This document shows positions 32,544-53,065 of a DNA stretch of 64,000 bases, in pieces. The translations under genes were made by a program, and so were the position numbers. How positions within the stretch are numbered: position 1 is the stretch's first letter; each line of letters begins with the position of its first letter. The stretch covers positions 1,550,001 to 1,614,000 of the forward strand of contig NZ_CP108088.1 in NCBI RefSeq assembly GCF_036192275.1. Direction: 5' to 3'. The notes below the pieces were generated by a model. The model ran no database searches, was not told where the DNA came from, and was given only the letters and a program-made list of their open reading frames with translations. Origin of the DNA: Streptomyces sp. NBC_00250 (GTDB lineage Bacteria > Actinomycetota > Actinomycetes > Streptomycetales > Streptomycetaceae).

Positions 32544-33107
32544 GTCCACGCCGTCCCGCGTCGCATCCTCCGCGCGACGCCCGCACACCGTCCAGGCCTC
32601 TCCACGGCGGCCACGGGGACGGCGCCGGACTCGGCGCGGGGCCGCCCGTCGACCCGCCTGGCCGTGCCGCCTCGGCAGGTGTGTACCTTTGCCGCTGAGC
32701 AGGTACGTACCTTCCCGCCGAGCCGGGCCCGCTTTCCCCGCTCAGAGTGCGCGTGACGCGGCGTCGGTTTCTCACCCGGGCACCCCGCGCCGCACCCCCG
32801 GTCGCACCTCCCCTCACCGACCCCCCGCCGGCCCGTGAGGGGTGACAAGGGTTTTCCCCGTATCGGGTTCACCCCCCCGTTCCCTACTGTCCTCCGCACC
32901 GGCAGATATCATCCCCCGACCGCACCACTGACAGGTGCATGCGGAGGGTGGCATCCGTCGGTGACGGCCTTGACCCGGGCCGTCGCGCCGGTGGCGGCGC
33001 ACGGGCCCCCCAGCCCAGGGAATGCCGGACGCGACCCCACTTCGCCCCGTGTGTCCCGCGCCGCCGCCACTGCTCCGCAGCTACGTCGTACTCGAAAGGG
33101 CCACACC
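32544..33107. other. 564-bp intergenic region upstream of the subtilase gene
   Basis: No gene is supported here. It contains a pair of AGGT..ACCT palindromes (listed separately), a possible long-range stem GGGGTGA (from ~32839) with TCACCCC (to ~32873), and the CGAAAGGG ribosome site that sets the TTG start of the protease. The length suggests a long leader or a multi-input promoter for the secreted protease. I looked for known riboswitch cores and did not find one I could defend. Confidence 0.5.
32677..32712. promoter_or_regulatory. Two AGGT-N4-ACCT palindromes 24 bp apart
   Basis: AGGTGTGTACCT (32677-32688) and the perfect palindrome AGGTACGTACCT (32701-32712) are spaced 24 bp start to start. 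They lie about 400 bp upstream of the subtilase start and 134 bp after the GNAT stop. Likely protein-binding sites; the binder is unknown. Confidence 0.55.
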
Positions 33108-34934
33108 TTGAACGGTTCCAGGCGGAGAGTCATATCCGTGGTCGCGAGCGCCGCGATCCTCGGCGCCGCTGCCACGACCGGGGCGATCGCCGCCGCCCCG
33201 GGCGCTGCCACCCCGAAGCCCGCACCGGCTTCGCAGACCATGCGGGCGCTCCCCAGCGCCCCGGTCGAGAAGGTCATCGTCACCTACAAGAGCAAGGCCG
33301 CCGAGGCCGGCTCCAACACCGCCGCGAAGAGCGACACGGCCGAGAAGGCCGCGAAGACGGGCGAGAAGCTCTCCTTCGAGCGTCGCCTCGCCGGCGGTGG
33401 CGCCCTGGTCGACCTGGGCGACAGCGCCACCAAGCAGGACCTGACGGAGGTCATGGACGCGTTCCGCGCCGACCCGTCCGTCGCCTCCGTCGAGCCCGAC
33501 ATCCGCGCCTACGCGATGGCGGTCACGCCGAACGACACCGACTACGCCAAGCAGTGGGACCTCTTCGAGCCCACCGGCGGCATGAACGTTCCTGCGGCCT
33601 GGGACAAGACGACCGGCTCCGGCGTCACCGTCGCCGTCATCGACACCGGCTACGCGGCCCACTCGGACCTGGCGACCAACGTCGTCTCCGGTTACGACTT
33701 CATCTCCACCTCCGCCGACGCCCGCGACGGCAACGGCCGTGACGCGGACTCCAAGGACGAGGGCGACTGGAACGCCACCGCCGGCGAGTGCGGCGCCGGC
33801 TCCACGGCGTCCAACTCCTCCTGGCACGGCACCCACGTGGCCGGCACCATCGCCGCCGTCACGAACAACACCAAGGGCATCGCGGGCATCGCGTACAACG
33901 CGAAGATCCAGCCCGTGCGCGTGCTCGGCAAGTGCGGCGGCTCGTCCGCCGACATCGCCGACGCGATCACCTGGGCGTCCGGCGGCTCCGTGCCGGGCGT
34001 CCCGGCCAACGCCACCCCGGCCAAGGTCATCAACCTGAGCCTGGGCGGCGCCAGCGCCACCTGCCCGAGCGTCTACCAGACCGCGATCAACGGCGCCGTC
34101 TCGCGCGGTACCACCGTCGTCGTCGCCGCGGGCAACAGCAACGCCAACGCCTCCGGATTCACCCCCGCGAACTGCGCGAACGTCATCAACGTGGCGTCCA
34201 CCAGCCGTGAGGGCAACCGGTCGTACTACTCCAACTTCGGCGCCATCGTGGACGTGGCCGCGCCCGGCGGCGAGACCCGTCGCTCGACCGACACGCCCGG
34301 CACCGTCACCACCCCCGAGAACGGCATCTACTCCACGCTGAACTCGGGCGCGACGACCCAGTCGGCCGAGAACTACAAGCCCTACCAGGGCACGTCGATG
34401 GCGGCGCCGCACATCGCCGGCCTCGCCGCCCTGCTCAAGTCGGCCAAGAGCACGCTCACCCCGGCCGAGATCGAGTCCGCGATCAAGGCCAACGCCCGCC
34501 CGCTGCCCGGCACCTGCACCGGCGGCTGCGGCACCGGCATCGCCGACTCCGCGAAGACCGTCGACGCCGTCACCACCACCCCGCCGGCCGGCACCGTCTT
34601 CACCAACGCGACCAATGTGACGGTCCCGGACAACACCACCGTGTCGTCCTCGATCGCCGTCACCGGCCGCACCGGCAACGCTCCCGCCGCCCTCAAGGTC
34701 GGCGTGGACATCAAGCACACCTGGCGCGGGGACCTGGTCATCGACCTGATCGCCCCCGACGGCACGGTGCGCAACCTCAAGGCGTCCTCCTCCTCGGACA
34801 GCGCCGACAACGTACTCACCACGTACACCGTCGACGCGTCGAGCGAGGTCGCCAACGGCACCTGGAAGCTTCAGGTCCGCGATGTGGCCACGGGTGACAC
34901 CGGCTACATCGACTCGTGGAGCCTGACCTTCTAA
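33108..34934 (+). CDS. Secreted subtilisin-like serine protease (S8) with propeptide and C-terminal P-domain
   Basis: 608 residues starting at TTG 33108 with AAAGGG 8 nt upstream. The signal peptide NGSRRRVISVVASAAILGAA continues with TTGAIAAAPGA. An I9-type propeptide (~50-140) ends SVEPDIRAYA. The catalytic triad lies in VTVAVIDTGYAAHSDL (Asp), SSWHGTHVAGTIAA (His) and YQGTSMAAPHIAGLAALLKS (Ser), with the oxyanion Asn in VVVAAGNSNANASG. A proprotein-convertase P-domain (~495-608; VTVPDNTTVSSSIAV, DIKHTWRGDLVIDLIAPDG, GWxx-like NGTWKLQVRDVATGDTGYID) follows. This architecture is typical of extracellular Streptomyces proteases; cysteine pairs suggest disulfides. Secretion by Sec or Tat is expected. 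Confidence 0.95.
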   Translation: MNGSRRRVISVVASAAILGAAATTGAIAAAPGAATPKPAPASQTMRALPSAPVEKVIVTYKSKAAEAGSNTAAKSDTAEKAAKTGEKLSFERRLAGGGALVDLGDSATKQDLTEVMDAFRADPSVASVEPDIRAYAMAVTPNDTDYAKQWDLFEPTGGMNVPAAWDKTTGSGVTVAVIDTGYAAHSDLATNVVSGYDFISTSADARDGNGRDADSKDEGDWNATAGECGAGSTASNSSWHGTHVAGTIAAVTNNTKGIAGIAYNAKIQPVRVLGKCGGSSADIADAITWASGGSVPGVPANATPAKVINLSLGGASATCPSVYQTAINGAVSRGTTVVVAAGNSNANASGFTPANCANVINVASTSREGNRSYYSNFGAIVDVAAPGGETRRSTDTPGTVTTPENGIYSTLNSGATTQSAENYKPYQGTSMAAPHIAGLAALLKSAKSTLTPAEIESAIKANARPLPGTCTGGCGTGIADSAKTVDAVTTTPPAGTVFTNATNVTVPDNTTVSSSIAVTGRTGNAPAALKVGVDIKHTWRGDLVIDLIAPDGTVRNLKASSSSDSADNVLTTYTVDASSEVANGTWKLQVRDVATGDTGYIDSWSLTF

Positions 34935-34990
34935 GGCACCACAGCTCCACCTCTGAACCACCCCCCACATCAGCATCATTGCTGGTCAGC

Positions 34991-35022
34991 GACGCGCTCG
35001 TGGTCTACACCACGGGCGCGTC
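34991..35022. terminator. Hairpin after the subtilase gene
   Basis: A 14-nt arm GACGCGCTCGTGGT (34991-35004), CTAC loop and the arm ACCACGGGCGCGTC (35009-35022) pair with one mismatch. It lies 57 bp after the stop. No U-tract; a likely actinobacterial-type terminator. Confidence 0.7.
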
Positions 35023-35161
35023 CTGGCGTTCGGGGGTGCCGTCCCGCCGGGGTGCACTGTCCGTATGCCGGACAAGGGGCCTGGACTCCGCCGGTGGGCT
35101 CCGTATTCTCTGCCCACGGGGCTCATGGGCCGGGGCCCGAGCGCGCCGGAGGTGGTGGACA

Positions 35162-38059
35162 GTGACGACAGCTCCGTACGCCGCCCTGCGCGCGGCGATT
35201 CCGGGGGGACCCTCTGCTCCGGTGGGCCGCGAGGAACTCCTCGCCCGGCTCGAACGTGCCCTCCACCTCCGCGGCCGTGCCCTGCTCACCGGACCCGCCG
35301 GGGTCGGCAAGACCGAAGTCGCGCTCGCCGAGGCGACCCGCGCCGAGGCACGCGGCGAGACCGTGCTGTGGCTGGCGACCCTGCCGTCCGACCGCGAGAT
35401 ACCCGGGGCCTCGGCCGCCGCGCTCGTGGCCTCGGTGGCGGCGAGCGCGACCTGGCCGGGACTGGATTCGGCCCCGCCCGAGGCCTCCGCGGTCTTCGAC
35501 GAACTGCCCGGCCCCCAGCGCACCGCCGTCGCCATGCTCTGCCGCGAGGCTCCGCTCGACGCGGGCGGCTGGGACCCGATCGCGCTCCGGCTCGGCATCG
35601 CGCAGATCCTGCGCACCCTGACCTACCGGGGCCCCGTCCTCCTCGTCGTCGACGGCGTGCAGCACGTCGACGCGGACAGCGCGGACCTGCTGCGCTTCGC
35701 CCTGCACCTGGCGCCGCCCGCGCTGCGGGTGGTGGCCGTCGAGACGCCGGAGCCGTACGGCGAGGCCGGCGAGCCCTACCGCGAACCCCACCGCCCCGAC
35801 GACCCGCACGCCGCCCACCTCTGGGTGCCGTCCGAGGCGGACGTGCTGCTCGTGCCCCCGCTGCACGCCGACGAGATCGCCGAACTCCTCATCCACCACC
35901 GGCTCCCCTCCCGGATGGCCGGCCGCATCCACCGCGCCAGCGGCGGCAATCCGCGGCTCGCGCTCGCCGTGGGCCGCTCACTGGCCGACGCGCGGACCCC
36001 CGTGCACCACGCGGAGGCGCTGACACTCTCCGGGCGCGCCCGCGATCTCGCCCGCCAGCTCCTGGGCGCCGCGCCCCTCGCCGTACGCGAGACGCTGCTG
36101 CTCGCGGCCCTCGCGCTGCGTCCCTCGTCGACCCTGGTACGGAGGGCGGGGCGGCCCAACGCGGAGGCGGACCTCGCGGCGGCCGAGCGGGCGGGCCTCG
36201 TGTCGCTCTCCGAGGACGGCTCGCTGACGTTCACCGCCGGGCTGCTGCCCTCGACCCTGGTGCACGACGCCTGTTGGGCCGAGCGGAGCGCCGGGCACGC
36301 GGCCCTGGCGGAGGTCGTGGACGACCCCGTGGAGGCCGTACGGCACCGGGCGCTGGCCACCGACAGCCCGGACGAGGACCTCGCCGCCGAGGTCGCGACC
36401 GCCGCCGACCTGGCGCGGCGCCGCGGCAACAGCGCGCTCGCCGCCGAACTCGCCCTGCTGGCCGCCGAGTCGACACCCGGACGGCATGGAACCCAGCGGA
36501 TCGCACGGCTCGTCGACGCCGCCGAGGAGGCGGCCCGCGCGGCCCGCGCCGACCTCGCCATGCGGGCCGCCACCGATCTGCTCGCCCGGGACGCGGTGCC
36601 CTCCGACCGGGTCAGGGCACGGCTCGCCGTACTCGACACGGCGGGGCAGGGGCTGACCGGGCTCGACGAGATGTACGTCCACGCCATGGAGGACTCCGAG
36701 GGGGACACCGCGCTGCGGGCGGCCGTACAGCTGCGACTGGCCGTCAAGTACGTGCTGGCGGACGGCGATCCGCACCGCTCGCGGACGGCGGCCGTCGAAT
36801 CGGCCGCGCTCGCCGCCTCCATGGGGGATCCGCGGACGGCGGCGCAGGCGCTGACCGTGCAGGCGCGGATGGAGCGGGCCCTCGGCGCACCGGACGCGGA
36901 GGCGGTGCTCGCGCAGGCCCGCGCACTGGAGCTGGCCGAGCGCCCTCTCGGCATCCGCAACGCCGCACAGATCCTGACGATCCGTCACGCCTTGTTCGAC
37001 GACCGGCTGACGGACGCCCGGGACGAACTGAACGCGCTCCTGCCCCTGGTCCAGCGGCGTGGTTCGGTGGAGGACACGATCGAGCTGTTCTCCACGCTGG
37101 CCGCCGTCGAGTCCCGCAGGGGCGCCTGCGCGGCCGCCCTCGCGCACGCGGGGCAGTCCCTCGCGCTCACCCTGGAGGCCGGCCTGTCCCCCGGCCCCGC
37201 CTGGTACACGCTGGCGCTCGCGGAGACGGCCGGCGGCAGCTTCGCGCGGGCGGCGAGCTATGCCCGGCGCAGCGTCCAGGCCTCGGAGGAGGAGGGCGAC
37301 CGGGTCTTCCTCTCCCGCAGCCGGTACGCGCTCGGCCGTGTCCAGCTGATCAACGGGGACGTCGCCGCCGCCCTGGAGACGCTGCGGCGCGTCCAGGCCG
37401 ACGAACGCGCCCAGTCGACCGTGGACCCGTCGATGCTGCGCTGGCACGAGGAGCTGGCCGAGGCGCTGCTCGCCCACGACGCGGGCGACGAGGCCCTGGC
37501 GCTCCTCGACGAGGTACGGCCGGTGGCGGCCCGGCTCGGCCGGTCCACGGTTCTGCTGGGCTGCGACCGGGCGTACGCCCTGTGGCTCGCGGCGGAGGGG
37601 CGGACGGACGAGGCGGCGCAGTTGCTCACCCGTACGGCCGAGGCGTTCGGTCGGGCCGGGCTTCCGCTCGAACGGGGACGGGCGCTGATCGCCCTGGCCC
37701 GGGTCGAGCGCCGCAGACGGCGCCGGTCGGCGGCGCAGAGCGCGCTGCACACGGCGGCCTCGGTGTTCGAGCGGGCCGGCGCGACCCCGTGGCTGGCCCT
37801 GGCGAGCGAGTCCCCGGCGGGGGCGGCGGGAGAGAACCCCGGGGGCGGCACCGTCAGCGAGGAGGCGCTGCCCGCTCTCTCCTCGCTCACGGAGGCGGAG
37901 CTGCGGCTCGCCCGCCTCGTGAGCCAGGGCGCCAGCAACCAGGAGGCGGCGGCGAAGCTGTACCTGAGCGTGAAGACGGTCGAGGCGCGGCTGACGCGGA
38001 TCTACCAGAAGCTCGACGTCCGCTCGCGGGCGCAACTGGCGACGGCGCTCCGACCGTAG
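35162..38059 (+). CDS. LuxR-family transcriptional regulator with N-terminal AAA/STAND ATPase
   Basis: 965 residues starting at GTG 35162 with GGAGG 10 nt upstream. The N-terminal ATPase has APVGREELLARLERAL and Walker A LTGPAGVGKTEVA (~residue 45), and Walker B VLLVVDGVQHVDADS (~160). The middle ~600 residues are helical TPR-like repeats. The C-terminus (~905-965) is a LuxR HTH: LTEAELRLARLVSQGASNQE then AAAKLYLSVKTVEARLTRI and YQKLDVRSRAQLATAL. It is intact, unlike the LAL-like protein at 22840. Convergent with the caspase gene (17 bp between stops). Target genes are unknown; the adjacent conflict-like locus is a candidate but this is unproven. Confidence 0.92.
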   Translation: MTTAPYAALRAAIPGGPSAPVGREELLARLERALHLRGRALLTGPAGVGKTEVALAEATRAEARGETVLWLATLPSDREIPGASAAALVASVAASATWPGLDSAPPEASAVFDELPGPQRTAVAMLCREAPLDAGGWDPIALRLGIAQILRTLTYRGPVLLVVDGVQHVDADSADLLRFALHLAPPALRVVAVETPEPYGEAGEPYREPHRPDDPHAAHLWVPSEADVLLVPPLHADEIAELLIHHRLPSRMAGRIHRASGGNPRLALAVGRSLADARTPVHHAEALTLSGRARDLARQLLGAAPLAVRETLLLAALALRPSSTLVRRAGRPNAEADLAAAERAGLVSLSEDGSLTFTAGLLPSTLVHDACWAERSAGHAALAEVVDDPVEAVRHRALATDSPDEDLAAEVATAADLARRRGNSALAAELALLAAESTPGRHGTQRIARLVDAAEEAARAARADLAMRAATDLLARDAVPSDRVRARLAVLDTAGQGLTGLDEMYVHAMEDSEGDTALRAAVQLRLAVKYVLADGDPHRSRTAAVESAALAASMGDPRTAAQALTVQARMERALGAPDAEAVLAQARALELAERPLGIRNAAQILTIRHALFDDRLTDARDELNALLPLVQRRGSVEDTIELFSTLAAVESRRGACAAALAHAGQSLALTLEAGLSPGPAWYTLALAETAGGSFARAASYARRSVQASEEEGDRVFLSRSRYALGRVQLINGDVAAALETLRRVQADERAQSTVDPSMLRWHEELAEALLAHDAGDEALALLDEVRPVAARLGRSTVLLGCDRAYALWLAAEGRTDEAAQLLTRTAEAFGRAGLPLERGRALIALARVERRRRRRSAAQSALHTAASVFERAGATPWLALASESPAGAAGENPGGGTVSEEALPALSSLTEAELRLARLVSQGASNQEAAAKLYLSVKTVEARLTRIYQKLDVRSRAQLATALRP

Positions 38060-38076: not shown

Positions 38077-38886
38077 TCAGACGGTGAACGGCCGTTGGCC
38101 CAGGAACTTCTGGTCGGGGGTGCCGGTGAGGTAGAGGTTCGGGCTCTGGGTCGGGGGCAGTCTGCGCTGGATCGCCCGGTGGAAGTCGCGGTAGCCGCCC
38201 TTGAAGGCGCCGTCGTCCCACACCCGCAGCAGGGCCTCGGTGAAGGCTCCGTTGACGTCGCCGTCGGAGGCGACCTGGTTGTCCTGGCAGGCCGAGACGA
38301 GCAGCACGTCGGGGCCCGCTCCGTTGCGGGGTGCGGCCTCGGCGAGCGTGCGCCGGAGCTCGGTGTAGAACTCCCGGTCGCGCGCGTACAGCTGCCGCTG
38401 TTCGGGCTCGGGCATGTAGCGGGCCGTGCCGTCGGCCTCCGGTCCGCCGGGGAGTTCGATGCTGCTGCCGCTGTGGCAGCAGTCGAAGAAGGTGACGATC
38501 CGTACGTCGTCGGCGAAGGCGCCGAAGGCCTGATGGACCTCGTCGTCGAGGAACTGACGGTCGTAGAGGACCAGGGTCTCGTCGAAGGCGTCCGGCTCGT
38601 CGTCGGAACCGGTGGCGTCGGGCAGCTGGCCGCCGTGGCCCGAGTAGGTGACGAGCATGATGTCGCCGGGTCCGAGCCGGGCGGCCGCGTCGGCGAGCAC
38701 GGCGGTGACGTTGGCGACGGTGCCGTCCGGAGTGAGCAGGACGGTGCTCTCGAATCCGGCGGTGCGGGCGAGCCGCGCCATGTCGTGGGCGTCGTTCTCG
38801 CAGGCGACCAGGGTGCCTTCCCAGCCCTCGTAGCGGGCGGGGTCGACGCTGTTGAGTCCGACGTGAAGGGCGAGTCCGGTGGCCAT
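38077..38886 (-). CDS. Caspase/metacaspase-like cysteine protease (peptidase C14)
   Basis: 269 residues. The p20-like core starts ALHVGLNSVDPARYEG and ACENDAHDMARLARTAGFES. The catalytic His is at about residue 84 in VTYSGHGGQLPD, and the catalytic Cys at about 137 in FFDCCHSGSS, the metacaspase DxCHSG pattern. The C-terminal DFHRAIQRRLPPTQSPNLYL then TGTPDQKFLG matches caspase proteins of bacterial conflict systems. The start at 38886 has AGGAGG 7 nt upstream. No effector or adaptor domain is fused. It is divergent (142 bp) from a nuclease and near a STAND/trypsin pair, so it is probably a cell-suicide or activation protease of that locus. Confidence 0.92.
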   Translation of the reverse strand: MATGLALHVGLNSVDPARYEGWEGTLVACENDAHDMARLARTAGFESTVLLTPDGTVANVTAVLADAAARLGPGDIMLVTYSGHGGQLPDATGSDDEPDAFDETLVLYDRQFLDDEVHQAFGAFADDVRIVTFFDCCHSGSSIELPGGPEADGTARYMPEPEQRQLYARDREFYTELRRTLAEAAPRNGAGPDVLLVSACQDNQVASDGDVNGAFTEALLRVWDDGAFKGGYRDFHRAIQRRLPPTQSPNLYLTGTPDQKFLGQRPFTV

Positions 38887-39028
38887 GGGGTGCCTCCTGA
38901 CGGAAGAGGAGGAAAGCGGGGGCAAGCAGGACGATGCGAAGGGCTTGTGAAGGGGAAGCGGGGCGTCTGATCGAGTGGCCTGTGGTCCGGCGCCGAGCGC
39001 GACCCTCTCCACGCGGTACTTACATCGT

Positions 39029-39916
39029 ATGAACCCTTCCGATCCCCCGCCCCCTCCGGCCCCGCGCGGTGGCCGCCGTGACGCGCTCGCCGACCGCACC
39101 GGCTACGACGAGGCCTTCCTCGGCCCGGTCGTCCCGCTGCCGCTCCCGGCCCGGGAATCGGTCGGGACGGTGATCCTGCCGTACACCCATTTCACCGTGG
39201 TGTTCCGGCCCGACCGGCGCCTCGCGGCCTCGACGGCCGTGTGCATCGAGGGGAGGGAGCTCCAGGAGGACGTGGCCCGGGACGACGACTGGCGGTTCGA
39301 CCCCCGGCTGCCCGAGGAACAGCAGGCGGGCGACGACGTCTACCGGAACAACAGCCTGGACCGCGGCCATCTCGTCCGCCGGCTCGACCCGGTCTGGGGG
39401 CCCTCGGCCACGGCGCTCCGCGCCAACGAGGACACCTTCCACTTCACCAACGCCGCGCCCCAGGCGGACGTCTTCAACCAGGGAAAACAGCTCTGGCAGG
39501 GCCTGGAGAACTACCTCCTCGACCATGCCGCCGCGTTCGACCGCAAGCTGACGGTCCTCACCGGCCCGGTGCTCCAGGACTCGGACCCGCCGTACCGGGG
39601 GATCCAGGTGCCGATGCGGTTCTGGAAGGTGGCCGCGTTCCTCCAGGACGGGGCGCTCGCCGCCGCCGCGTACGTGCTCGACCAGAGCCCCGACCTCAGC
39701 CGGGACGCGGAGCGGGCGCTCGCGGGGGCCACGGCCGGCGCTCCGCCGCCGCTCGGCCCGTTCCGTACGTACCAGGTGCCGGTCTCGGACGTCGCGGAGA
39801 TCACCGAGCTGGAGTTCGGGCCGCTGCCGGACGTGGACGTGATGCCGGCGGTGCGGGCGCCCGAGGAGCGCTGGCGGCGCCTGGAGTCGTACGAGGACAT
39901 CGTTCTGCATCCCTGA
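39029..39916 (+). CDS. DNA/RNA non-specific endonuclease (NUC family)
   Basis: 295 residues of the NUC1/NucA beta-beta-alpha-metal nuclease family. The catalytic motif is NNSLDRGHLVRRLDPVWG (DRGH, about residues 113-116). The metal Asn region is HFTNAAPQADVFNQG, followed by W..LENYLL and LTGPVLQDSD. There is no signal peptide, so it would act in the cytosol, unusual for this often secreted or mitochondrial family and consistent with a toxic effector. The ATG at 39029 lacks a clear ribosome site and may be leaderless. The homologous group occurs beside caspase and trypsin genes in conflict loci. Same strand as the giant STAND gene 199 bp downstream. Confidence 0.92.
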   Translation: MNPSDPPPPPAPRGGRRDALADRTGYDEAFLGPVVPLPLPARESVGTVILPYTHFTVVFRPDRRLAASTAVCIEGRELQEDVARDDDWRFDPRLPEEQQAGDDVYRNNSLDRGHLVRRLDPVWGPSATALRANEDTFHFTNAAPQADVFNQGKQLWQGLENYLLDHAAAFDRKLTVLTGPVLQDSDPPYRGIQVPMRFWKVAAFLQDGALAAAAYVLDQSPDLSRDAERALAGATAGAPPPLGPFRTYQVPVSDVAEITELEFGPLPDVDVMPAVRAPEERWRRLESYEDIVLHP

Positions 39917-39977
39917 CCTGCCCCGTGCCCGGCACCCCTGACGTGACCCAGCCCGGCATCCCTGACCTGCCCCGCCC
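39907..39977 (+). repeat. Three tandem 22-25-bp repeats after the nuclease gene
   Basis: Units built on GCATCCCTGACCTGCCCCG start at 39907, 39932 and 39956. The first overlaps the nuclease stop codon. The unit repeats the sequence around the stop, as if the gene end was duplicated by slippage. A TTGACT box follows at 39978. Confidence 0.7.
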
Positions 39978-40115
39978 TTGACTTCCGCTTGCCCCCGCAG
40001 GGATTGCGACCCCGCCTGCCGGGTGGAACGATGAAAGGGATCGGCCGTCTGACCGATCTCACGTCCCGGCGCCGGAGCGACCGGCGCTGCGCCAAGAGCG
40101 CCGGGCAGGTGCGGT

Positions 40116-43100
40116 ATGCCGCTCACCGAAACCGAGTGGGGACTCGTCGCCAGCTGGGTACGGGATCACCTCCTCGACACTCCCGAACCACGCGAGAAGC
40201 TGCTGCGCTCCGGCCTCCCCGCCGACTTCGTCGACGACCTGCCGCTCACCCCGGAAGCCGACCGCAACGCCCTGCTGGTGGTCGCGGCCGCCCGCCGGGA
40301 CATCGCCCACCAGCGCCGGCTGCTCACCGTCCTCACCGGCCTCGACGCGCTGGCCGCCATCGACGCTCCGCACGCTTTCGAACAGGGCGCCGAGGCCCGG
40401 AACCTCCTCACCCGGCTGCGCGAGGACGAGAGCCTGCGGCGCTCGCCGGAGGACCCCTTCCACAGTCACCTCCTGAAGCACGGGACGGCGGTCTTCCTGG
40501 ACCGGTCGGAGCTGCGCGAGAAGCTGCGGGGCTTCCTCTCCGACCCGGAGCAGACGGTGCTGATCGTCGACGGTCCCCCGGACAGCGGCCGCTCCTACAC
40601 GTACGAGTTCATCCGCCATCTCGGCCAGCACGAGAACTTCCGGCCGGTCCGGGTGACCCTGTCCCGCACCTCGACGGCGGCGCGTCTGATGGAGCGGCTC
40701 GCGGCCTTCGTCGCGGGCCCGGAGGCCGACGGATATCCGTTGAACCCCACACGGTTGAACGATCCACTGCCCTGCTTCGAGGACGCGGCGCACCGGATCG
40801 TCGCCCGCGCCACCGCCGCCGAGGACCGCTTCTGGCTGGTCCTCGACGACTGCGACCGGCTCGACCCGCAATCGGACGTGTGGGACGCCATCGGCGTCCT
40901 GGCCCGGGCGATCTACGAGCACACCCCGGTACGCGCCCAGACGGTGCCCCGTCTGGTGCTGCTGGGGTACGCCACGACGATGCGCCAGCTCCCGTACGAG
41001 ATCCGCAAGAACGAGTGCCGTGACACCACGCGCCTCGCCGACGAGGACGATCTCCGGGCCTTCTTCGAGGAGTTCTTCACCGACACGGCCCCCATCGGGC
41101 GGGAGGACTCCGTCCAGGAGCTGACGGAGACGGCCGTGGCCGAGGTGCTACGTGCCGTCGACTGCCCTTCCAACGGCGACAGTTACATGCGCAGACTGTG
41201 TACGGCCGTGGAGGACGTCGTACGGCTCCACCGGGCGCTGCCACCGACGGCGCCGCGGACCGACGGGACCGCCCACCTCCTGCGCGACGCCCTGCGCGCG
41301 AGTCTCACCGCCCCCGCCGCCACCCTGCTCGATCCACGCCTCTCCTACCGCGAAGCCGCCTGTCTGCTCCAGGAGTTCGACCCGGCGCTGCTCCGACTGC
41401 CCGGCGAGGAGCGGTCCACCGGGCGGGCCGTCCTCGAACTCGTCGACGACTGCACCGCCCTGCCCTCCCCCGATGCCACGGTCTGGACGCTCAAGCCCGA
41501 GATCCGCGAGGCGGCCCTGACGGGCCTCGCGGGCCCGGAGGCAGCCCTGGACGCCCTGCGGACCAATATCGGGCTGCGGCCCGAGGGCCCCGGCCCGGAA
41601 CGCACGGCCCTGACGCTCCTCACCGGCACCGGCAAGGCCCTGCCGCCCGCCGACCCGCACCCCGAGGCCCCGGCCCCCGCCCAGGCCCGGCTCCAGCCCC
41701 AACCCCAGCCCCACGACGATGACGTCGCGGAGCTGTCCGACACCCTCCAGGCCGTGCTCTGGCTCAGCCGGGTGCCGGGCGTCACCGGACTGCCCCCCGT
41801 CGACGAGGTCCAGCACCGGCTGGAGACGGCCAGGCTGCTCCAGCCGATGCACCGGCTGATCCGGGGCACCTTCCACGGCCGCACCGCCGAACTCGACGCC
41901 CTGCACGCCTACATCGCGCTCCCCGAGGAGCCGGCGGAGCCCCCGGTGATCCTCCACGGCATCGGCGGCATCGGCAAAAGCACCCTGCTCGCCAAGTTCC
42001 TCGTCGACGCCCTGGCCGCGTCGCCCACCGGATTCCCCTTCGCCTACATCGACTTCGCTCGTCCCACCCTCTCCGTCCACGAACCCGCCACCATGATCGC
42101 GGAGATGGCCCGACAGCTGGGCGTCCAGCATCCCGCCCGGCGCACCGCCTTCGAAGCGCTCGCCGACGAGTGCGAGCGGACGGCGGCGGCCCAGCGCGGG
42201 GAGCGCAACGAGCTCGACGACCTCCATCAACTGGCCGGTACCAGAGCCACTCTCGCCCGCGACTACTCGGCCGACTTCCACGCCCGCGCCAGCGCCCGGG
42301 AGCAGGAACTCGCCCACCGGATCGCGTCCCTGATCGCCGAGGCCGTCCGGCCGACGCCCGGAGGGTCACCTCCACCGTTCGTCGTCGTGCTCGACTCCGC
42401 CGAGGAGTCCCAGTACCGGGGCTCCCCGCTCATCTCCCGCATGTGGGCCATCTGGACGGCGCTGCGGGCGGACTACTCACGCCTCCGGTACATCGTCTCC
42501 GGGCGCGCACCGTTCGACCACCCGGCCCGGGTCCTCACCCCGCGCACGATGGAGCTCACCGAGCTCGACCACCAGGCCTCCGTGGACCTCCTGATGTCCT
42601 CCGGGGTCCTCGACGAGGCGCTCGCCGAGGACCTCGCGGAGCGGATCGGCGGCCATCCGCTGAGCCTCAAGCTGGCGGCCCGCACGGCGGTCACCGTGGG
42701 CAGCGACTCCCCCTCGCTCGGTGGACTCCTGCGCGGACTCCCCTCCCGGCGGCGCTACTTCGACCGTCAGGTCGACCAGATGCTCATCCAGGGCACGCTG
42801 TACGACCGCATCCTCAAGCACATCGCGGAGGAGGACGTCAGGGCCCTCGTCCAGGCGGGCCTCGCCCTCCGCTTCATCACCCCCGACCTGGTCCGGGAGG
42901 TCCTCGCCGGTCCGGCGGGGCTGCGGGTGGAGACCGCCGCGGAGGCCCGGCGGCTCTACGGACTGCTCACCTCGCGCGTCGACCTGATGGAGTCGGCCGG
43001 CCCCGACGCCATCCGGCACCGGGCCGATCTACGGGCCATCATGCTGCGTCTCTCGGACAGTGCGCGGACCGATCTGATGCGGGCCGTGGACCGCAGCGCC

Positions 43101-45587
43101 GTCGCGTACTACGCGACCCGCGAGGGGGCCAGGAACCGCGCCGAGGAGATCTACCACCGGCTCCGGCTGGGCGAGAACCCCCGCACGGTGGAGGAGCGTT
43201 GGGATCCGGGAGTCGCCGTCTACCTGGGCGGTTCGACCCACCTGGAGATGCCGCACCGCTCCGCCGCCTTCCTCCTCGGCAGGATCGGCGGCCACGTGCC
43301 CGACCAGATCATGACCGAGGCCGACCAGGAGGACTGGGAGCGGATCGCCGCGCGCGAGGTCGAGGACCTGCTCACCCAGGGGTACGTGGAGAACGCGGCG
43401 CAGCGGCTCGCCGAGCGGCGCCCGTGGACGCCGTGCAGCCGGCTGCACGCGCTGCTCGCCGAGACTCTCGCCCGATCCGGGCGGACCGCGGAGGCGCTCG
43501 CGAGCGCCGAGCGGGCCGTGGACAGGGCGGAGGAGGCCGGCTGCGCGGAGACCCAGCTGGAACTGCTGCAGCTGTCGGCGCGGCTCGCTCAGGACACGGG
43601 CGACTTCGCGGACGCGGACCGGGACCTCCAGGAGGCCGAGGCGATCGCGGCGGGTCTGGGGCTGCGGTTCGAGTCCCTGGGCATCCTCGTCGCCCGGTCG
43701 CGGCTCGCCGACCTCGCCGACGTCGACGCCGTCCCGGCGCGGGAGCGGCTGGCCCGGACGCTGCGCGGGATGCCCGACGCCGACCTGGCCCGGCAGCCGT
43801 CCCTGGCGCGTACGGCGGCGGCCACGGCCTGCCCGGAGGATCCCCAGCTCCTGGAGCACACCCTGCGGCTGGTGGGGCTTCCGGCGGACGAGGAGGCGGT
43901 GGTGACCGAGCTCGCCGGCTGGATCGACACCACCCTCACCGACGAGCCCGGACTCCGCGGGCCGCTGACCCGCATCCTGGAGACTGCGGCCGGGAAGCCC
44001 GACGCGTTGCCGGGCGACGCTCCCCACCTGGATCGCGAGCGGATCGAGGGGGACCTTCGGGAGGCGCGGCGGCGCGGCACCCTGGACAGCGTCGCCCGGC
44101 AGGCGCTCACGCTCCGGGACGGCAGCGGGGACCTGCTGCTCGGGGTCGCCTCCGCGATGGACGCGGGCCCGGTGCCGCGCGGGTCCGCGCCGGAGGACGC
44201 GGCCGGGGGCGGCTCCGCGGGCGACCGCGCCCCCGCCGGAACACCGTCGGAGCCCTGGGCGGGCCCGCGCCCTCGTCACGGCAGTACGGGGCTGTGGACG
44301 CGTCCGCCGCCGAACGCCGCCGGGGCCGCGCTCCGCAAGGAGCCGTTCCTGCCGCAGGAGGAACTCGTCCGGGTCCGCAACGCCGCCATGGAGGCCGGAC
44401 TCGCCGCCCGGGCGCTTCGCCCGTCCCTGCTCAAGGGCATCCCCGGCAACTTCACGGCCACGCTCGAACCGCTGGACGACCCCCGCGAACAGGTCCACGC
44501 CGACCTGAACGCGATGAACCAGGTCGAGCGGCTGATCGACGGTCTGGTGCCGCTGGAGATCTGGCTGCACAACGCGATCGAGCAGACCCGTGAACCGGGT
44601 CCGCGTGCCGTCCTGCAGAGTGCCCTCGACGCCGTCGCCCGCTCGATCACGGGCGAGGCGGAGCTGCCGGCGGAGATGATGCCCGGGGAGATGAAGGAGG
44701 AGATCGTCCTCCAGGACGACACCGTGCCGTACGAGTTCCTGCACGGCGGGATCCGGGCCGGTGCCTCCGTGGCGCTTCTGCGCATCCCCCCGTACGAGTC
44801 GGGGGCACCACTGCTCCCGTCCTATCCGCACGGCGGTACGGGCTGGATGATCGCCCCCGATCTGCTGATCACCAACCACCATGTGGTGATGGCCCGTTCG
44901 TGGGAGGCGGGTGTCCGTCCGTACGTGAGCGACGAGGATCTTCGGCTCCAGGCGCTGATGTCCCGCTCGCGCTTCGACTTCGTCGAGAACACGGCGACGA
45001 CGCCGGAGGCGACGGCGGGTGAGCTGGAGGCCTGGGACGCGACGCTCGACTACGCCATCGTGCGGCTCTCCCCCGACCAGGAGCAGCGTCCGACGCTCCG
45101 GGTCTCCACGCGGCCGCTGCTCGTCCGGGAACGGCAGCGCGTGCCGGTGAACATCATCCAGCACCCGGGCGGCCTTCCGAAGCGGGTCGCGCTGCGCAAC
45201 AACCTGGTCTACCGGGCGGACGAGCAGGACATCCTGTACTTCACCGACACCCGCGGCGGCTCCTCCGGCTCCCCGGTCTGCCTCGACGACTGGACGGTGG
45301 TCGGGCTGCACCGGGGGACACGGAAGGTGGACGAGGTCGAGTTCCAGGGCGCCAGGACGAAATTCGTGAACGTCGGGACCCAGATGAGCGGCATTCTCGC
45401 CCATCTCAAGGAGTTCCGGGCGGAGTTGTACGAGGAGATCATGGCCGCCCAGTCGGGCCGACCGGCCCCGACCCACCCGCCGAACGGAACGAGCCCGCCG
45501 AGCCCGCCGAGCGGAACGACCCAGCCGAACGGCACGAACCCCATGAGCGGAACGAACACCACCAACGGGAACGGGAAGCCGAGGTGA
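40116..45587 (+). CDS. Giant EAD-like / dual NTPase (STAND) / TPR-like / trypsin-like protease protein
   Basis: 1823 residues. (1) ~1-90: small helical domain (TETEWGLVASWVRDHLLDTP) resembling effector-associated domains. (2) ~120-330: an ATPase module with VLIVDGPPDSGRSYTYEF (~148-165; Walker A Lys replaced by Arg) and WLVLDDCDRLD (~245). (3) ~590-900: a STAND NTPase with FHGRTAELDAL, Walker A ILHGIGGIGKSTLLAKFL (~615) and Walker B VVVLDSAEES (~755). (4) ~1060-1300: TPR-like helices. (5) ~1410-1495: second EAD-like helical domain. (6) ~1530-1780: trypsin-like peptidase with His ITNHHVV (~1589), Asp in LDYAIVRL (~1645) and Ser in GGSSGSPV (~1717). A Pro/Gly/Asn-rich tail ends the protein. No signal peptide. 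It probably senses a trigger, oligomerises and activates proteolysis. Confidence 0.88.
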   Translation: MPLTETEWGLVASWVRDHLLDTPEPREKLLRSGLPADFVDDLPLTPEADRNALLVVAAARRDIAHQRRLLTVLTGLDALAAIDAPHAFEQGAEARNLLTRLREDESLRRSPEDPFHSHLLKHGTAVFLDRSELREKLRGFLSDPEQTVLIVDGPPDSGRSYTYEFIRHLGQHENFRPVRVTLSRTSTAARLMERLAAFVAGPEADGYPLNPTRLNDPLPCFEDAAHRIVARATAAEDRFWLVLDDCDRLDPQSDVWDAIGVLARAIYEHTPVRAQTVPRLVLLGYATTMRQLPYEIRKNECRDTTRLADEDDLRAFFEEFFTDTAPIGREDSVQELTETAVAEVLRAVDCPSNGDSYMRRLCTAVEDVVRLHRALPPTAPRTDGTAHLLRDALRASLTAPAATLLDPRLSYREAACLLQEFDPALLRLPGEERSTGRAVLELVDDCTALPSPDATVWTLKPEIREAALTGLAGPEAALDALRTNIGLRPEGPGPERTALTLLTGTGKALPPADPHPEAPAPAQARLQPQPQPHDDDVAELSDTLQAVLWLSRVPGVTGLPPVDEVQHRLETARLLQPMHRLIRGTFHGRTAELDALHAYIALPEEPAEPPVILHGIGGIGKSTLLAKFLVDALAASPTGFPFAYIDFARPTLSVHEPATMIAEMARQLGVQHPARRTAFEALADECERTAAAQRGERNELDDLHQLAGTRATLARDYSADFHARASAREQELAHRIASLIAEAVRPTPGGSPPPFVVVLDSAEESQYRGSPLISRMWAIWTALRADYSRLRYIVSGRAPFDHPARVLTPRTMELTELDHQASVDLLMSSGVLDEALAEDLAERIGGHPLSLKLAARTAVTVGSDSPSLGGLLRGLPSRRRYFDRQVDQMLIQGTLYDRILKHIAEEDVRALVQAGLALRFITPDLVREVLAGPAGLRVETAAEARRLYGLLTSRVDLMESAGPDAIRHRADLRAIMLRLSDSARTDLMRAVDRSAVAYYATREGARNRAEEIYHRLRLGENPRTVEERWDPGVAVYLGGSTHLEMPHRSAAFLLGRIGGHVPDQIMTEADQEDWERIAAREVEDLLTQGYVENAAQRLAERRPWTPCSRLHALLAETLARSGRTAEALASAERAVDRAEEAGCAETQLELLQLSARLAQDTGDFADADRDLQEAEAIAAGLGLRFESLGILVARSRLADLADVDAVPARERLARTLRGMPDADLARQPSLARTAAATACPEDPQLLEHTLRLVGLPADEEAVVTELAGWIDTTLTDEPGLRGPLTRILETAAGKPDALPGDAPHLDRERIEGDLREARRRGTLDSVARQALTLRDGSGDLLLGVASAMDAGPVPRGSAPEDAAGGGSAGDRAPAGTPSEPWAGPRPRHGSTGLWTRPPPNAAGAALRKEPFLPQEELVRVRNAAMEAGLAARALRPSLLKGIPGNFTATLEPLDDPREQVHADLNAMNQVERLIDGLVPLEIWLHNAIEQTREPGPRAVLQSALDAVARSITGEAELPAEMMPGEMKEEIVLQDDTVPYEFLHGGIRAGASVALLRIPPYESGAPLLPSYPHGGTGWMIAPDLLITNHHVVMARSWEAGVRPYVSDEDLRLQALMSRSRFDFVENTATTPEATAGELEAWDATLDYAIVRLSPDQEQRPTLRVSTRPLLVRERQRVPVNIIQHPGGLPKRVALRNNLVYRADEQDILYFTDTRGGSSGSPVCLDDWTVVGLHRGTRKVDEVEFQGARTKFVNVGTQMSGILAHLKEFRAELYEEIMAAQSGRPAPTHPPNGTSPPSPPSGTTQPNGTNPMSGTNTTNGNGKPR

Positions 45588-45594
45588 GTGAACC

Positions 45595-46674
45595 ATGTCG
45601 AACGGACAACAGAGCGTGTCGCCGGTCGCGACCGCCACCGAGCGGATCTTCGGTGATCTGGCGGAGGTCGCCGCACGGGTGCGCGGCCAACTGGAGGCGG
45701 AGATCACCGAGTCCACGTTCGAACTCCCCGCCGACGTGGCGCCGGCTGCCGAGATCTCCCGCTTCGCCCGCGAGGAGCGGGCGCGCGTCCTGGAGGCCGG
45801 AGTCAGCGGCCTGGAGAAGCTGGCCTCGCACCGGGAGGACGAACTCGACGGAGACGAGTCCTTCGGCGTGGAGGCGATCGTCCTCCTGGAGGGCCGCCCG
45901 GCGATCCTGGTGCAACGCCAGGACTTCGCCTCGCAGCACGACGAGTGGGCGGTCCTCGACGACAAACGACCGGCGATCCGCGAGTCCTTGGCCCGCGTGG
46001 GGCGGGTCGAGGTCAGCGGCCACCCCCGGCTGGACTGGATCGGCACGGCCTTCCTCGTCGGCCCGCGCGCGGTGATGACGAACCGTCATGTGGCGGTGGA
46101 GTTCAGCCGCTCGGCGGACGGCGACGGCCGGTGGACCTTCGAGCAGGGCATGTCGGCGCGGGTCGACCCGGCGGAGGAGCTGCCGCTCGCCGGTGAGGCG
46201 CCCGGGGCGTCCGTGCCGTACGAGATCACGGAGATCATCGGAATCCACCAGGACGTCGACATGGCCCTGCTGCGGATCGAGCCCTCGGCGGACGGCGGCC
46301 TGCCCACGCCGCTCGCGGTCGCCGCGGACGCCCCGGCGAGCGTTCCCGGCCGCCCGGTGTACGTGGTCGGCTACCCGGCCTGGGACGGCCGGCGCAACGA
46401 ACCCGAGTCGATGCGCCGGATCTTCATGGACGTCTACAACGTGAAGCGCCTCCAGCCGGGCGCGGCCACCGACTTCACACCGGGCGGCCTGGTGCTGAAG
46501 CACGACTGCTCGACCCTCGGCGGCAACAGCGGCTCCCCGGTCTTCGACCTCGACGACCACCGCGTCCTCGGCCTCCACTTCGGCGGCCGCTACGGCACGG
46601 GCAACTACGCCGTCCCGCTCTGGGAGTTGCTGGACGACCCGCTGCTCACCGCGGCGGAGGTCAACTGGGTCTAG
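45595..46674 (+). CDS. Trypsin-like serine protease with helical N-terminal region
   Basis: 359 residues. Residues ~1-150 are a hydrophilic, partly helical region I cannot assign (FGDLAEVAARVRGQLEAEI, VEAIVLLEGRPAILVQRQDF). Residues ~150-345 form a trypsin/HtrA-like protease: His in AVMTNRHVAVEF (~164), Asp in HQDVDMALLRI (~222) and Ser in LGGNSGSPVFDL (~312). No PDZ domain and no signal peptide, so it is cytosolic, unlike HtrA. It starts 7 bp after the giant STAND-trypsin gene stop, so they are co-expressed. Likely a second effector or substrate protease in the same locus. Confidence 0.9.
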   Translation: MSNGQQSVSPVATATERIFGDLAEVAARVRGQLEAEITESTFELPADVAPAAEISRFAREERARVLEAGVSGLEKLASHREDELDGDESFGVEAIVLLEGRPAILVQRQDFASQHDEWAVLDDKRPAIRESLARVGRVEVSGHPRLDWIGTAFLVGPRAVMTNRHVAVEFSRSADGDGRWTFEQGMSARVDPAEELPLAGEAPGASVPYEITEIIGIHQDVDMALLRIEPSADGGLPTPLAVAADAPASVPGRPVYVVGYPAWDGRRNEPESMRRIFMDVYNVKRLQPGAATDFTPGGLVLKHDCSTLGGNSGSPVFDLDDHRVLGLHFGGRYGTGNYAVPLWELLDDPLLTAAEVNWV

Positions 46675-52207: not shown

Positions 52208-53065
52208 TCATGCTTCGAGGACGACGACGGCCTCGTCCGTGTACGTGCGGAAGGTCAGCGTCTCCTGGAAGTACAGCTGGACGCTGTGCGCGTCGTGCCC
52301 CGTGTAGCCGATCGCCAGGTCCTGGCCGAGGAACAGCTCGAAGTCGCCGCCGCGGGTGGACAGGACGAAGCCGCCGCTGAGGGCCGGCGCCCAGATCGGG
52401 GAGCCGTCGAGCATGCGGCCGAGGTGCGCCGCGATCGGGTAGCCGTGGTCGGAGGTCTCGCTGACCGCCCGGTACTCGTCGGCGCCGAGCAGCAGCGCGT
52501 ACGGGCCGTCGACACCGGCGAGGCGCAGCGCGGTGAGCGCTCTGCTGACCGTGTCGGGGTAGTCGCGCGGTTCGGCGGGCAGCCGGACGACCGGGTTCGA
52601 GGACCTGGCGCGCAGGCCGTCGACGCCGGCCGCCTCGTACCCGTCGAAGATCGTCCGGTCCTCGACGAACGCCATGGCGCGCGCGGCGTCCTTGACGGGT
52701 TGCCAGTCGGAGTCCTTCGAGCCGCGCTCGACGTCGTCGACGGCGGCCCGGTCGACGGTGAACGGCACCCTGAGTTCGACCAGGGATTTCGCCTCGCGCA
52801 GGCGGGCGGTGACGCCGGGGGCGGGCGCGCTCATGTCGGTGAGGTGTCCGGTGCCGACGGCGGCGAGTTCGGGGCCTCCGGGGTCGGGGACGTCGACGAC
52901 GCGGCGGCCGGCGACGTTGCGCCGGAAGGTGCGGCGGGCCTCCTCCTCGATCTCGGCCCAGGCCGCCGGGGTGATCGGGGCGAGTTCGCGGTGCAGGTTG
53001 TTCGTGTCGGCTCCGCGGTAGGCGTCCGTCGGGGCACCGGGGGGCGTGGCGTCGGGGGTCGTCAT
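52208..53065 (-). CDS. Family 1 encapsulin nanocompartment shell protein
   Basis: 285 residues with the HK97-like encapsulin fold: NNLHRELAPITPAAWAEIEE (N-arm that binds cargo peptide), RRVVDVPDPGG, SLVELRVPFTVDR, DRTIFDGYEAAGVDGL and the C-terminal YTDEAVVVLEA. The N-terminal ~22 residues are an extra Pro/Ala/Thr-rich extension. It assembles into a hollow protein shell that packages the DyP peroxidase encoded 6 bp upstream. AAAGGAG lies upstream of ATG 53065. Confidence 0.95.
   Translation of the reverse strand: MTTPDATPPGAPTDAYRGADTNNLHRELAPITPAAWAEIEEEARRTFRRNVAGRRVVDVPDPGGPELAAVGTGHLTDMSAPAPGVTARLREAKSLVELRVPFTVDRAAVDDVERGSKDSDWQPVKDAARAMAFVEDRTIFDGYEAAGVDGLRARSSNPVVRLPAEPRDYPDTVSRALTALRLAGVDGPYALLLGADEYRAVSETSDHGYPIAAHLGRMLDGSPIWAPALSGGFVLSTRGGDFELFLGQDLAIGYTGHDAHSVQLYFQETLTFRTYTDEAVVVLEA

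Follow-up and report, generated by a model that had tools for sequence, protein, structure and literature searches.

A conserved Streptomyces gene cluster of proteases, a nuclease and an NLR-bearing fusion protein that looks like a bacterial relative of inflammasome machinery

Do the caspase, nuclease, NTPase and trypsin genes that lie side by side in the chromosome of Streptomyces sp. NBC_00250 make up one system and, if so, of what kind? The genes are located in a 64,000-nucleotide stretch of contig NZ_CP108088.1 (genome size 9.27 Mb); this whole stretch is referred to as the window, and all coordinates follow its numbering. A stand-alone caspase/metacaspase-like protease of 269 amino acids (aa) is encoded on the minus strand (38077..38886), divergently from a NUC nuclease of the Endonuclease_NS / NucA-EndoG type (39029..39916, plus strand, 295 aa). 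Further along the plus strand are the gene of an 1823-aa protein (40116..45587), in which an N-terminal domain, a first NTPase, an NLR, an EAD5 domain and a trypsin domain are joined, and, starting 7 bp downstream of it, the gene of a second trypsin-like protease (trypsin 2; 45595..46674, 359 aa). The four genes are real and conserved, and their association is not due to chance. Together they look like a bacterial relative of the animal inflammasome and apoptosome machinery, and the locus is probably related to the CARD-NLR and NucA-trypsin immune systems, cascade included, as their EAD5-bearing counterpart in actinobacteria. An earlier note, made from the letters of the window, had proposed the class of STAND/NLR proteins acting with peptidases and a nuclease, and in this it was right.

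A search for proteins related to the 1823-aa protein gave 198 matches, and among the 120 listed the best-scoring named ones were from Streptomyces. A scan with two peptide patterns, using one genome per species, identified 67 relative loci, all of them (67/67) titled Streptomyces. Retention of the individual genes was counted in loci with enough contig, and separately in the divergent loci, i.e. the 43 loci whose NLR was less than 65% identical. EAD5-trypsin was present in 62/62 and trypsin 2 in 61/62 of all loci, the caspase in 49/58 and NUC in 45/58; the corresponding values for the divergent loci were 40/40, 39/40, 28/37 and 24/37. Two upstream genes served as flanking controls, one for a LuxR-family LAL regulator with an AAA_16 domain (34916-38059, plus strand) and one for a P-domain subtilase of the S8 type (32835-34934, plus strand). 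Each was found in 3/33 divergent loci, and each of six downstream genes in 0/37.

These counts bear on the simplest explanation, ordinary synteny, according to which housekeeping or secreted-protease genes were co-inherited as neighbours with no joint function. In line with it, close relatives keep the flanks as well: LAL and S8 adjoin the locus in 19/19 close relatives whose contig reaches far enough upstream. The divergent loci, however, lose the flanks and retain the core, the gene junctions are short or overlapping (the NTPase-to-trypsin gap is negative in 30/65 cases), and the genes appear to have been fused stepwise (see below). Ordinary synteny is thus largely refuted by the locus counts, and we consider it very improbable. 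LAL and S8 were rejected as members of the system on account of their rarity in the divergent loci and their persistence without the core in two loci (L088 and L090). The earlier note had asked whether the four genes travel together and had named rare adjacency as grounds for abandoning the idea. They do travel together beyond flanking synteny, but the near-invariant unit is the core only; the caspase and the nuclease are each absent in places and each found elsewhere without the core.

Since EAD5-trypsin and trypsin 2 are near-invariant while caspase, NUC and an alpha/beta-hydrolase vary, the core consists of NTPase 1, NLR, EAD5-trypsin and trypsin 2, and the nuclease, the caspase and the hydrolase are exchangeable outputs. 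Core genes with neither caspase nor nuclease were found in 8/37 divergent loci, all eight of which carry the hydrolase gene, and also in genomes G176 and G257. The hydrolase occurs in 32 loci and in 0/24 loci (window included) having the fused form. When two hydrolase proteins were scanned, one exceeded the Pfam cut-off (Thioesterase, 29.3 bits versus 26.4) and the other was below all cut-offs. When hydrolase and nuclease were compared over independent pairs of the tree, too few of the pairs were informative (median p 0.25).

The linkage was also studied in a genus sample of 121 Streptomyces genomes. NLR matches were found in 9/121 genomes, seven of them close. Within a few kb of the close NLR, trypsin 2 was present in 7/7, NUC in 6/7 and the caspase in 6/7 genomes; G015 lacked only NUC and G064 only the caspase. 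Hypergeometric probabilities of these associations, phylogeny not removed, were 1.3e-10 for trypsin 2, 8e-7 for NUC and 1.5e-7 for the caspase. An eighth trypsin 2 match, in G091, was 39% identical and part of another system. Some genomes argue against tight coupling: NUC occurs without the NLR in G025, G096 and G098, as well as in G018 and G058 at 41% identity, and the caspase occurs without the NLR in G055, G069 and G096. In G025 and G098 (loci L088 and L090) the orphan NUC lies beside S8 and LAL, and the core is not there. That an orphan NUC is tolerated would fit a nuclease needing activation. A class sample of 345 genomes contained the NLR in seven, two of them outside the genus; both other-genus loci have the four-part core and, in the stretch read, neither nuclease nor caspase. 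In one of them the core lies near an AbiEii-type gene (L102:5305-6204), in the other near two subtilases (L103:3555-6635).

Such loci raise the possibility that two independent units stand side by side, the core being a system on its own and the caspase and nuclease its neighbours by happenstance. Besides the loci in which the core does without both genes, this reading can point to NUC without the core in 5/121 genomes (the three close and two 41% cases above) and the caspase without it in 3/121, to the caspase being transcribed away from the other genes, and to the canu systems, in which, according to the accessible text of PMC12799240, a caspase and a nuclease are paired. The nucleases of canu are, however, of the metallo-beta-lactamase (MBL) fold and not Endonuclease_NS; homology with the NUC portion of fusion proteins of the trypsin 2 type ties NUC to the core; caspase and nuclease are on different contigs in G096; and the caspase accompanies the core in most of the loci with enough sequence. 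On balance we regard two separate units as unlikely.

What does the core protein consist of? Its chain has three modules: the N-terminal domain with an Orc/Cdc6-type NTPase (aa 1-375), an NLR-like NTPase part (aa 376-1350) and EAD5-trypsin (aa 1411-1780), all encoded on the plus strand. The N-terminal helical domain (aa 1-111, 40116..40448), discussed below, is followed by NTPase 1 (aa 113-375, 40452..41240), which has a Cdc6/Orc1/NB-ARC-like AAA+ fold. Pfam matched AAA_22 at aa 146-259, and an AlphaFold2 model (pLDDT 86.1) had its best structural matches in Cdc6/Orc1, followed by CED-4, Apaf-1 and Avs3 (VIA-align). A feature absent from the earlier note is that the P-loop lysine of NTPase 1 is replaced by arginine (R159), invariant in 41 alignment rows. 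A region preceding NTPase 2 (aa 376-585, 41241..41870) begins where a gene starts in split loci, its extent being set by analogy with the accessible part of PMC13236601. NTPase 2 (aa 586-773, 41871..42434) is of the STAND/NLR type, with a canonical GGIGKS P-loop (AAA_16, E 6.6e-9; NPHP3_N, E 4.5e-7), so that the two NTPase modules noticed earlier are both borne out by Pfam. The C-terminal part of the NLR (aa 774-1350, 42435..44165) is partly spanned by the hhalign alignments to plasmid NLRs described below and probably consists of helical repeats; the TPR-like repeats suggested for it correspond to a weak TPR_12 match (E 0.089). Next come EAD5 (aa 1411-1543, 44346..44744; PF19957, E 4.6e-42), whose score of 143.5 bits compares with a curated Pfam cut-off of 27 and which accounts for the second EAD-like segment of the earlier note, and the trypsin-like protease domain (aa 1574-1731, 44835..45308; Trypsin_2 PF13365, E 1.3e-17). 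The catalytic residues of the proteases and the nuclease are assigned by motif; the complete triad reported for the giant protein, H1589, D1645 and S1717, is kept in 64/64 relatives.

In many loci the equivalent of the 1823-aa protein is encoded by two or three neighbouring genes. Medians and the range of starts place the borders of the split genes near aa 375/377-389 and 1351/1408-1411, between NTPase 1, NLR and EAD5-trypsin; the last of these is, when split off, a gene product of about 380 aa. Judged by these borders, the 1823-aa protein is three genes fused into one. An approximate tree was built from 74 NLR sequences, among them a truncated one, three long-branched rows of the EAD1 type and some affected by errors of gene calling. 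In it the three-, two- and one-gene forms were broadly nested, in that order, and the fewest changes of fusion label were five. One locus (L025) is labelled 'two' solely through a contig end. The gene-call label 'none' of L069 was discarded as an artefact, as tblastn shows both caspase and NUC there. The nesting suggests that the genes were fused stepwise.

The N-terminus of the core protein had been described as EAD-like. No Pfam match was found there at E<=0.1, hhalign gave probabilities of 0.3% against EAD1 and 1.4% against EAD5, and hhalign was also negative when the domain was compared with the N-termini of proteins from seven relatives. Sequence profiles show no relation to EAD, which the earlier note had itself named as a reason to give up its view, and an EAD at this position was rejected on the Pfam and the EAD1 and EAD5 hhalign results. 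The equivalent N-terminus in the EAD1-type relatives carries EAD1. When modelled alone, the domain forms a helical bundle whose weak structural matches are headed by CARDs; a Foldseek search with the model gave no match at E<=0.001, the best row being the designed protein 6jcc (E 0.82), whose name includes 1CY5, the Apaf-1 CARD. Tentatively, the model suggests a CARD-like (death-fold-like) domain.

Can EAD5 recruit the effectors? EAD-mediated recruitment, as the earlier note had envisaged, implies more than one copy of the same EAD in a genome, on the core and on an effector. A single EAD5 was found in each of the genomes with the EAD5 form (12/12), the window's genome giving one match, and EAD1 in none of them (0/12); Pfam detects no EAD in the nuclease or the caspase of the locus. 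Because EAD5 is single-copy and the nuclease and caspase have no EAD, effector recruitment through EAD5-EAD5 pairing appears unlikely from domain content, and this part of the earlier proposal was not upheld.

The proteins encoded around the core protein gave clear profile matches, and what had been noticed about their domains and residues proved sound. Trypsin 2 matches PF13365 (E 5e-19) and the PADLOC model PDLC03010 (E 4.6e-18), keeps H165, D222 and S312 in 63/63 relatives, and is 37-39% identical to three relatives, two of which are trypsin-NUC fusions, so that it is a homologue of their trypsin half. The PADLOC models 'nacht', 'caspase', 'subtilase' and 'trypsin-like' derive from gasdermin operons. 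NUC, an accessory effector, matches Endonuclease_NS (PF01223, E 6.7e-44); H114 of its DRGH motif is kept in 48/48, and its identity is 44% with a stand-alone NUC from a Polaromonas operon and 38% with the NUC portion of a trypsin-NUC protein of 662 aa. The caspase, an accessory component whose best gene start is near 38886, matches Peptidase_C14 (PF00656, E 1.8e-24), and its H84 and C137 are invariant in 53/53 relatives. PDB 3bij / GSU0716, a Geobacter protein, is a full-length homologue (E 7.3e-77). Membership in the EACC1-associated caspase type (NF047832) was rejected, the score being 35.7 bits where the cut-off is 140.

Homologues of both accessory proteins were encountered in other settings. 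NUC genes 69-79% identical lie at L088:7440-8336, L090:7227-8087 and L089:7181-8095, with no NLR, trypsin 2 or adjacent caspase, and L093:6203-8065 encodes a 620-aa protein with a NUC domain at its C-terminus. The 620-aa (G018) and 618-aa (G058) NUC proteins had been considered as trypsin-NUC fusions, which was dropped when a Pfam scan of the G018 protein found no trypsin. Caspase homologues (48-49%) without the core (L105 5919-6773, L106 6323-7177, L107 6459-7313) adjoin a 702-708 aa protein, in L105 a PAS/GAF/SpoIIE protein. The window's genome has four more caspase domains (G000:C1:956487, 6745888, 7312273 and 7478189), in open frames of 642-1800 aa.

Relatives of the core were also found beyond the Streptomyces EAD5 form. 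In tblastn, the NLR segment at aa 561-1350 of the core protein matched 18 plasmid records (best E 9e-51) and trypsin 2 matched 32; among the 15 NLR records listed of the 18, eleven also match trypsin 2, but nine of the eleven are Rhizobium plasmids whose match scores are the same. The neighbourhoods of six plasmid NLRs were read. Aligned by hhalign, a profile of 23 NLRs matched all six plasmid NLRs (6/6; E 7e-24 to 1.5e-68, probability 99.6-100), and the control, the LAL regulator, gave E 0.06 and a probability of 0.9%. In Paraburkholderia an operon encodes proteins of 603, 1031 and 662 aa, corresponding to trypsin, NLR and trypsin-NUC, which is the layout of the published LypABC; in Polaromonas the stand-alone NUC adjoins the NLR; and an Agrobacterium plasmid protein combines trypsin 2 (37%) and NUC (33%) in one chain. 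By these alignments the NLR, trypsin 2 and the nuclease are homologous to parts of proteobacterial operons with the CARD-NLR (LypABC) / NucA-trypsin layout. NTPase 1 aligns to a Paracoccus EAD1-NTPase (hhalign E 7.3e-11) and to a Caulobacter rhizosphaerae protein (E 2.8e-7); it gave no alignment with the LypA-like trypsin-ATPase of Paraburkholderia.

A three-gene set of EAD1-trypsin, EAD1-NTPase and NLR occurs in Paracoccus (L080) and in three streptomycetes (L091, L092 and L104, the EAD1 of the last placed by genome search). EAD-trypsin, NTPase 1 and NLR are parts common to these relatives and to the EAD5 form; the EAD1-type loci differ in having EAD1 on both the trypsin and NTPase 1, and the trypsin gene first. 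The three EAD1-type Streptomyces genomes contain no EAD5; the stretches read there had no trypsin 2 or NUC match, and no nuclease is annotated in the Paracoccus stretch. Another two-protein protease system was seen at L077:8815-14686 (Streptomyces cellulosae plasmid) and L108:2140-7981, where a trypsin-2-like protease adjoins a protein of 1615-1625 aa, in L077 a trypsin-TIR-STAND-like protein.

How might the parts work together? The NLR part would sense an invader and assemble by means of its canonical NTPase, with the CARD-like N-terminal domain and NTPase 1, whose P-loop has arginine, as adaptor. Clustering would bring the EAD5-linked trypsin domains close to one another and activate them by proximity, and the fused trypsin might then cleave and activate trypsin 2; LypABC lysis, as described in the accessible text of PMC13236601, likewise needs both peptidases, of LypA and LypC, in addition to the NLR NTPase. 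The cascade, whose order we infer, would release or activate the nuclease, the caspase and/or the hydrolase, and the cell, probably one infected by phage, would die or stop growing. Trypsin 2 is near-invariant and the nuclease is not, and the nuclease residues of LypC are dispensable for lysis in Caulobacter (same source); for these reasons the indispensable executioner is more probably trypsin 2 than the nuclease, a prediction unlike the published NucA-trypsin view.

On kinship alone, an antiphage function is probable. A serious rival, in our estimate an improbable one, is that the same machinery runs programmed lysis or death for the host's own ends, such as development or the release of domesticated phage-like particles. 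LypABC, the studied system of this architecture, is required for lysis mediated by the gene transfer agent (GTA) (accessible text of PMC13236601), and in the window's clade the locus has one chromosomal place, with LAL and S8 beside every close locus that has enough sequence upstream. On the other hand, the patchy presence among the 121 genomes and the changing flanks of the divergent loci look more like those of a defence gene than of a developmental gene, and among the neighbours scanned there was no phage-like gene except that of an encapsulin shell protein (52208-53065, minus strand; Linocin_M18, E 2.1e-91), present in 13/21 close loci with enough sequence. The encapsulin fold is phage-related.

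A bolder possibility, which we put forward tentatively and at less than even chances, is a single-chain bacterial apoptosome. Its chain would covalently link a CARD-like domain, a pair of STAND-type NTPases, the NLR sensor and the machine's own trypsin, and the protease would be concentrated directly whenever the sensor assembles; caspase, nuclease and lipase-like hydrolase would be parallel, exchangeable death outputs driven by this cascade. If this is true, the series from three genes to two to one records a signalling complex turning into one protein. On the main reading, the locus would extend protease cascades of the CARD-NLR-like type to multicellular bacteria, in a large group that is genetically tractable; its natural split and fused series shows which parts act together, and in it a caspase adjoins an NLR with a CARD-like domain.

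How, finally, does the locus compare with known systems? Membership in canu was rejected, the nuclease here being Endonuclease_NS and not MBL-fold. According to the accessible text of PMC12799240, a trypsin or a caspase can unmask a pro-nuclease in other immune systems, and activation of a nuclease by such a protease would be the common point; the differences are that canu pairs its caspase with an MBL-fold nuclease and that the trypsins of the gated pairs are fused to HamA, Avs or LmuA proteins. System 3 of Kaur 2020, as given in the accessible text of PMC7159879, combines NucA with a number of trypsin-like peptidases, to which some of its operons add a STAND NTPase, and a proteolytic cascade was proposed for it; the EAD5 domain had already been named in the same paper. 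NucA-type nuclease and trypsin are likewise encoded together here (in the window; among loci with enough sequence, 45/58 have NUC and 61/62 trypsin 2), along with a STAND NTPase, and in System 3, too, an EAD is sometimes on the trypsin. System 3, however, is mostly alphaproteobacterial, uses EAD1 or bDLD2 and has NucA in its essential core, whereas the present form has EAD5, belongs to streptomycetes and includes a caspase. Its nuclease is often absent (missing in 13/37 divergent loci, G015 and the other-genus loci) and is therefore not an essential core component in the sense of the Kaur proposal, which is no strict definition.

The closest likeness is to the CARD-NLR systems, to which the gasdermin operon of Lysobacter enzymogenes also belongs, as cited in the accessible text of PMC13236601. 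In LypABC of Caulobacter crescentus, LypA comprises a CARD, a trypsin and an ATPase domain without conserved Walker residues, LypB an Orc1-like ATPase with repeats, and LypC a trypsin and an endonuclease (same source). Shared with this layout are two trypsin-like proteases, an NLR with a canonical Orc1-like NTPase and repeats, a second NTPase domain whose activity is doubtful and a NUC nuclease; the comparison is with the published layout and with homologous operons. The NLR has a canonical P-loop and is homologous to those of LypABC-layout operons, and trypsin 2 and NUC match the two halves of the fusions, as expected where a second trypsin adjoins an effector or is fused to it. Trypsin and NTPase 1 are in one chain here, but the arrangement is other than CARD-trypsin-degenerate NTPase: EAD5 and not CARD is on the trypsin, and NTPase 1 stands with the N-terminal domain and not behind the trypsin. 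All parts but trypsin 2 and NUC are in one chain, NUC is apart from trypsin 2, and a caspase has been added, as has a hydrolase in other species. The earlier note knew of no such combination described as one system. Searches of open-licence literature, taken without figures and supplementary files, turned up no description of the EAD5 form, of the fusion series, of the caspase or of the hydrolase; the locus is not isolated but sits beside the CARD-NLR and NucA-trypsin systems. CARD-NLR and System 3 are kinds already known, of which the progressively fused, caspase-linked, EAD5-bearing form is a new version.

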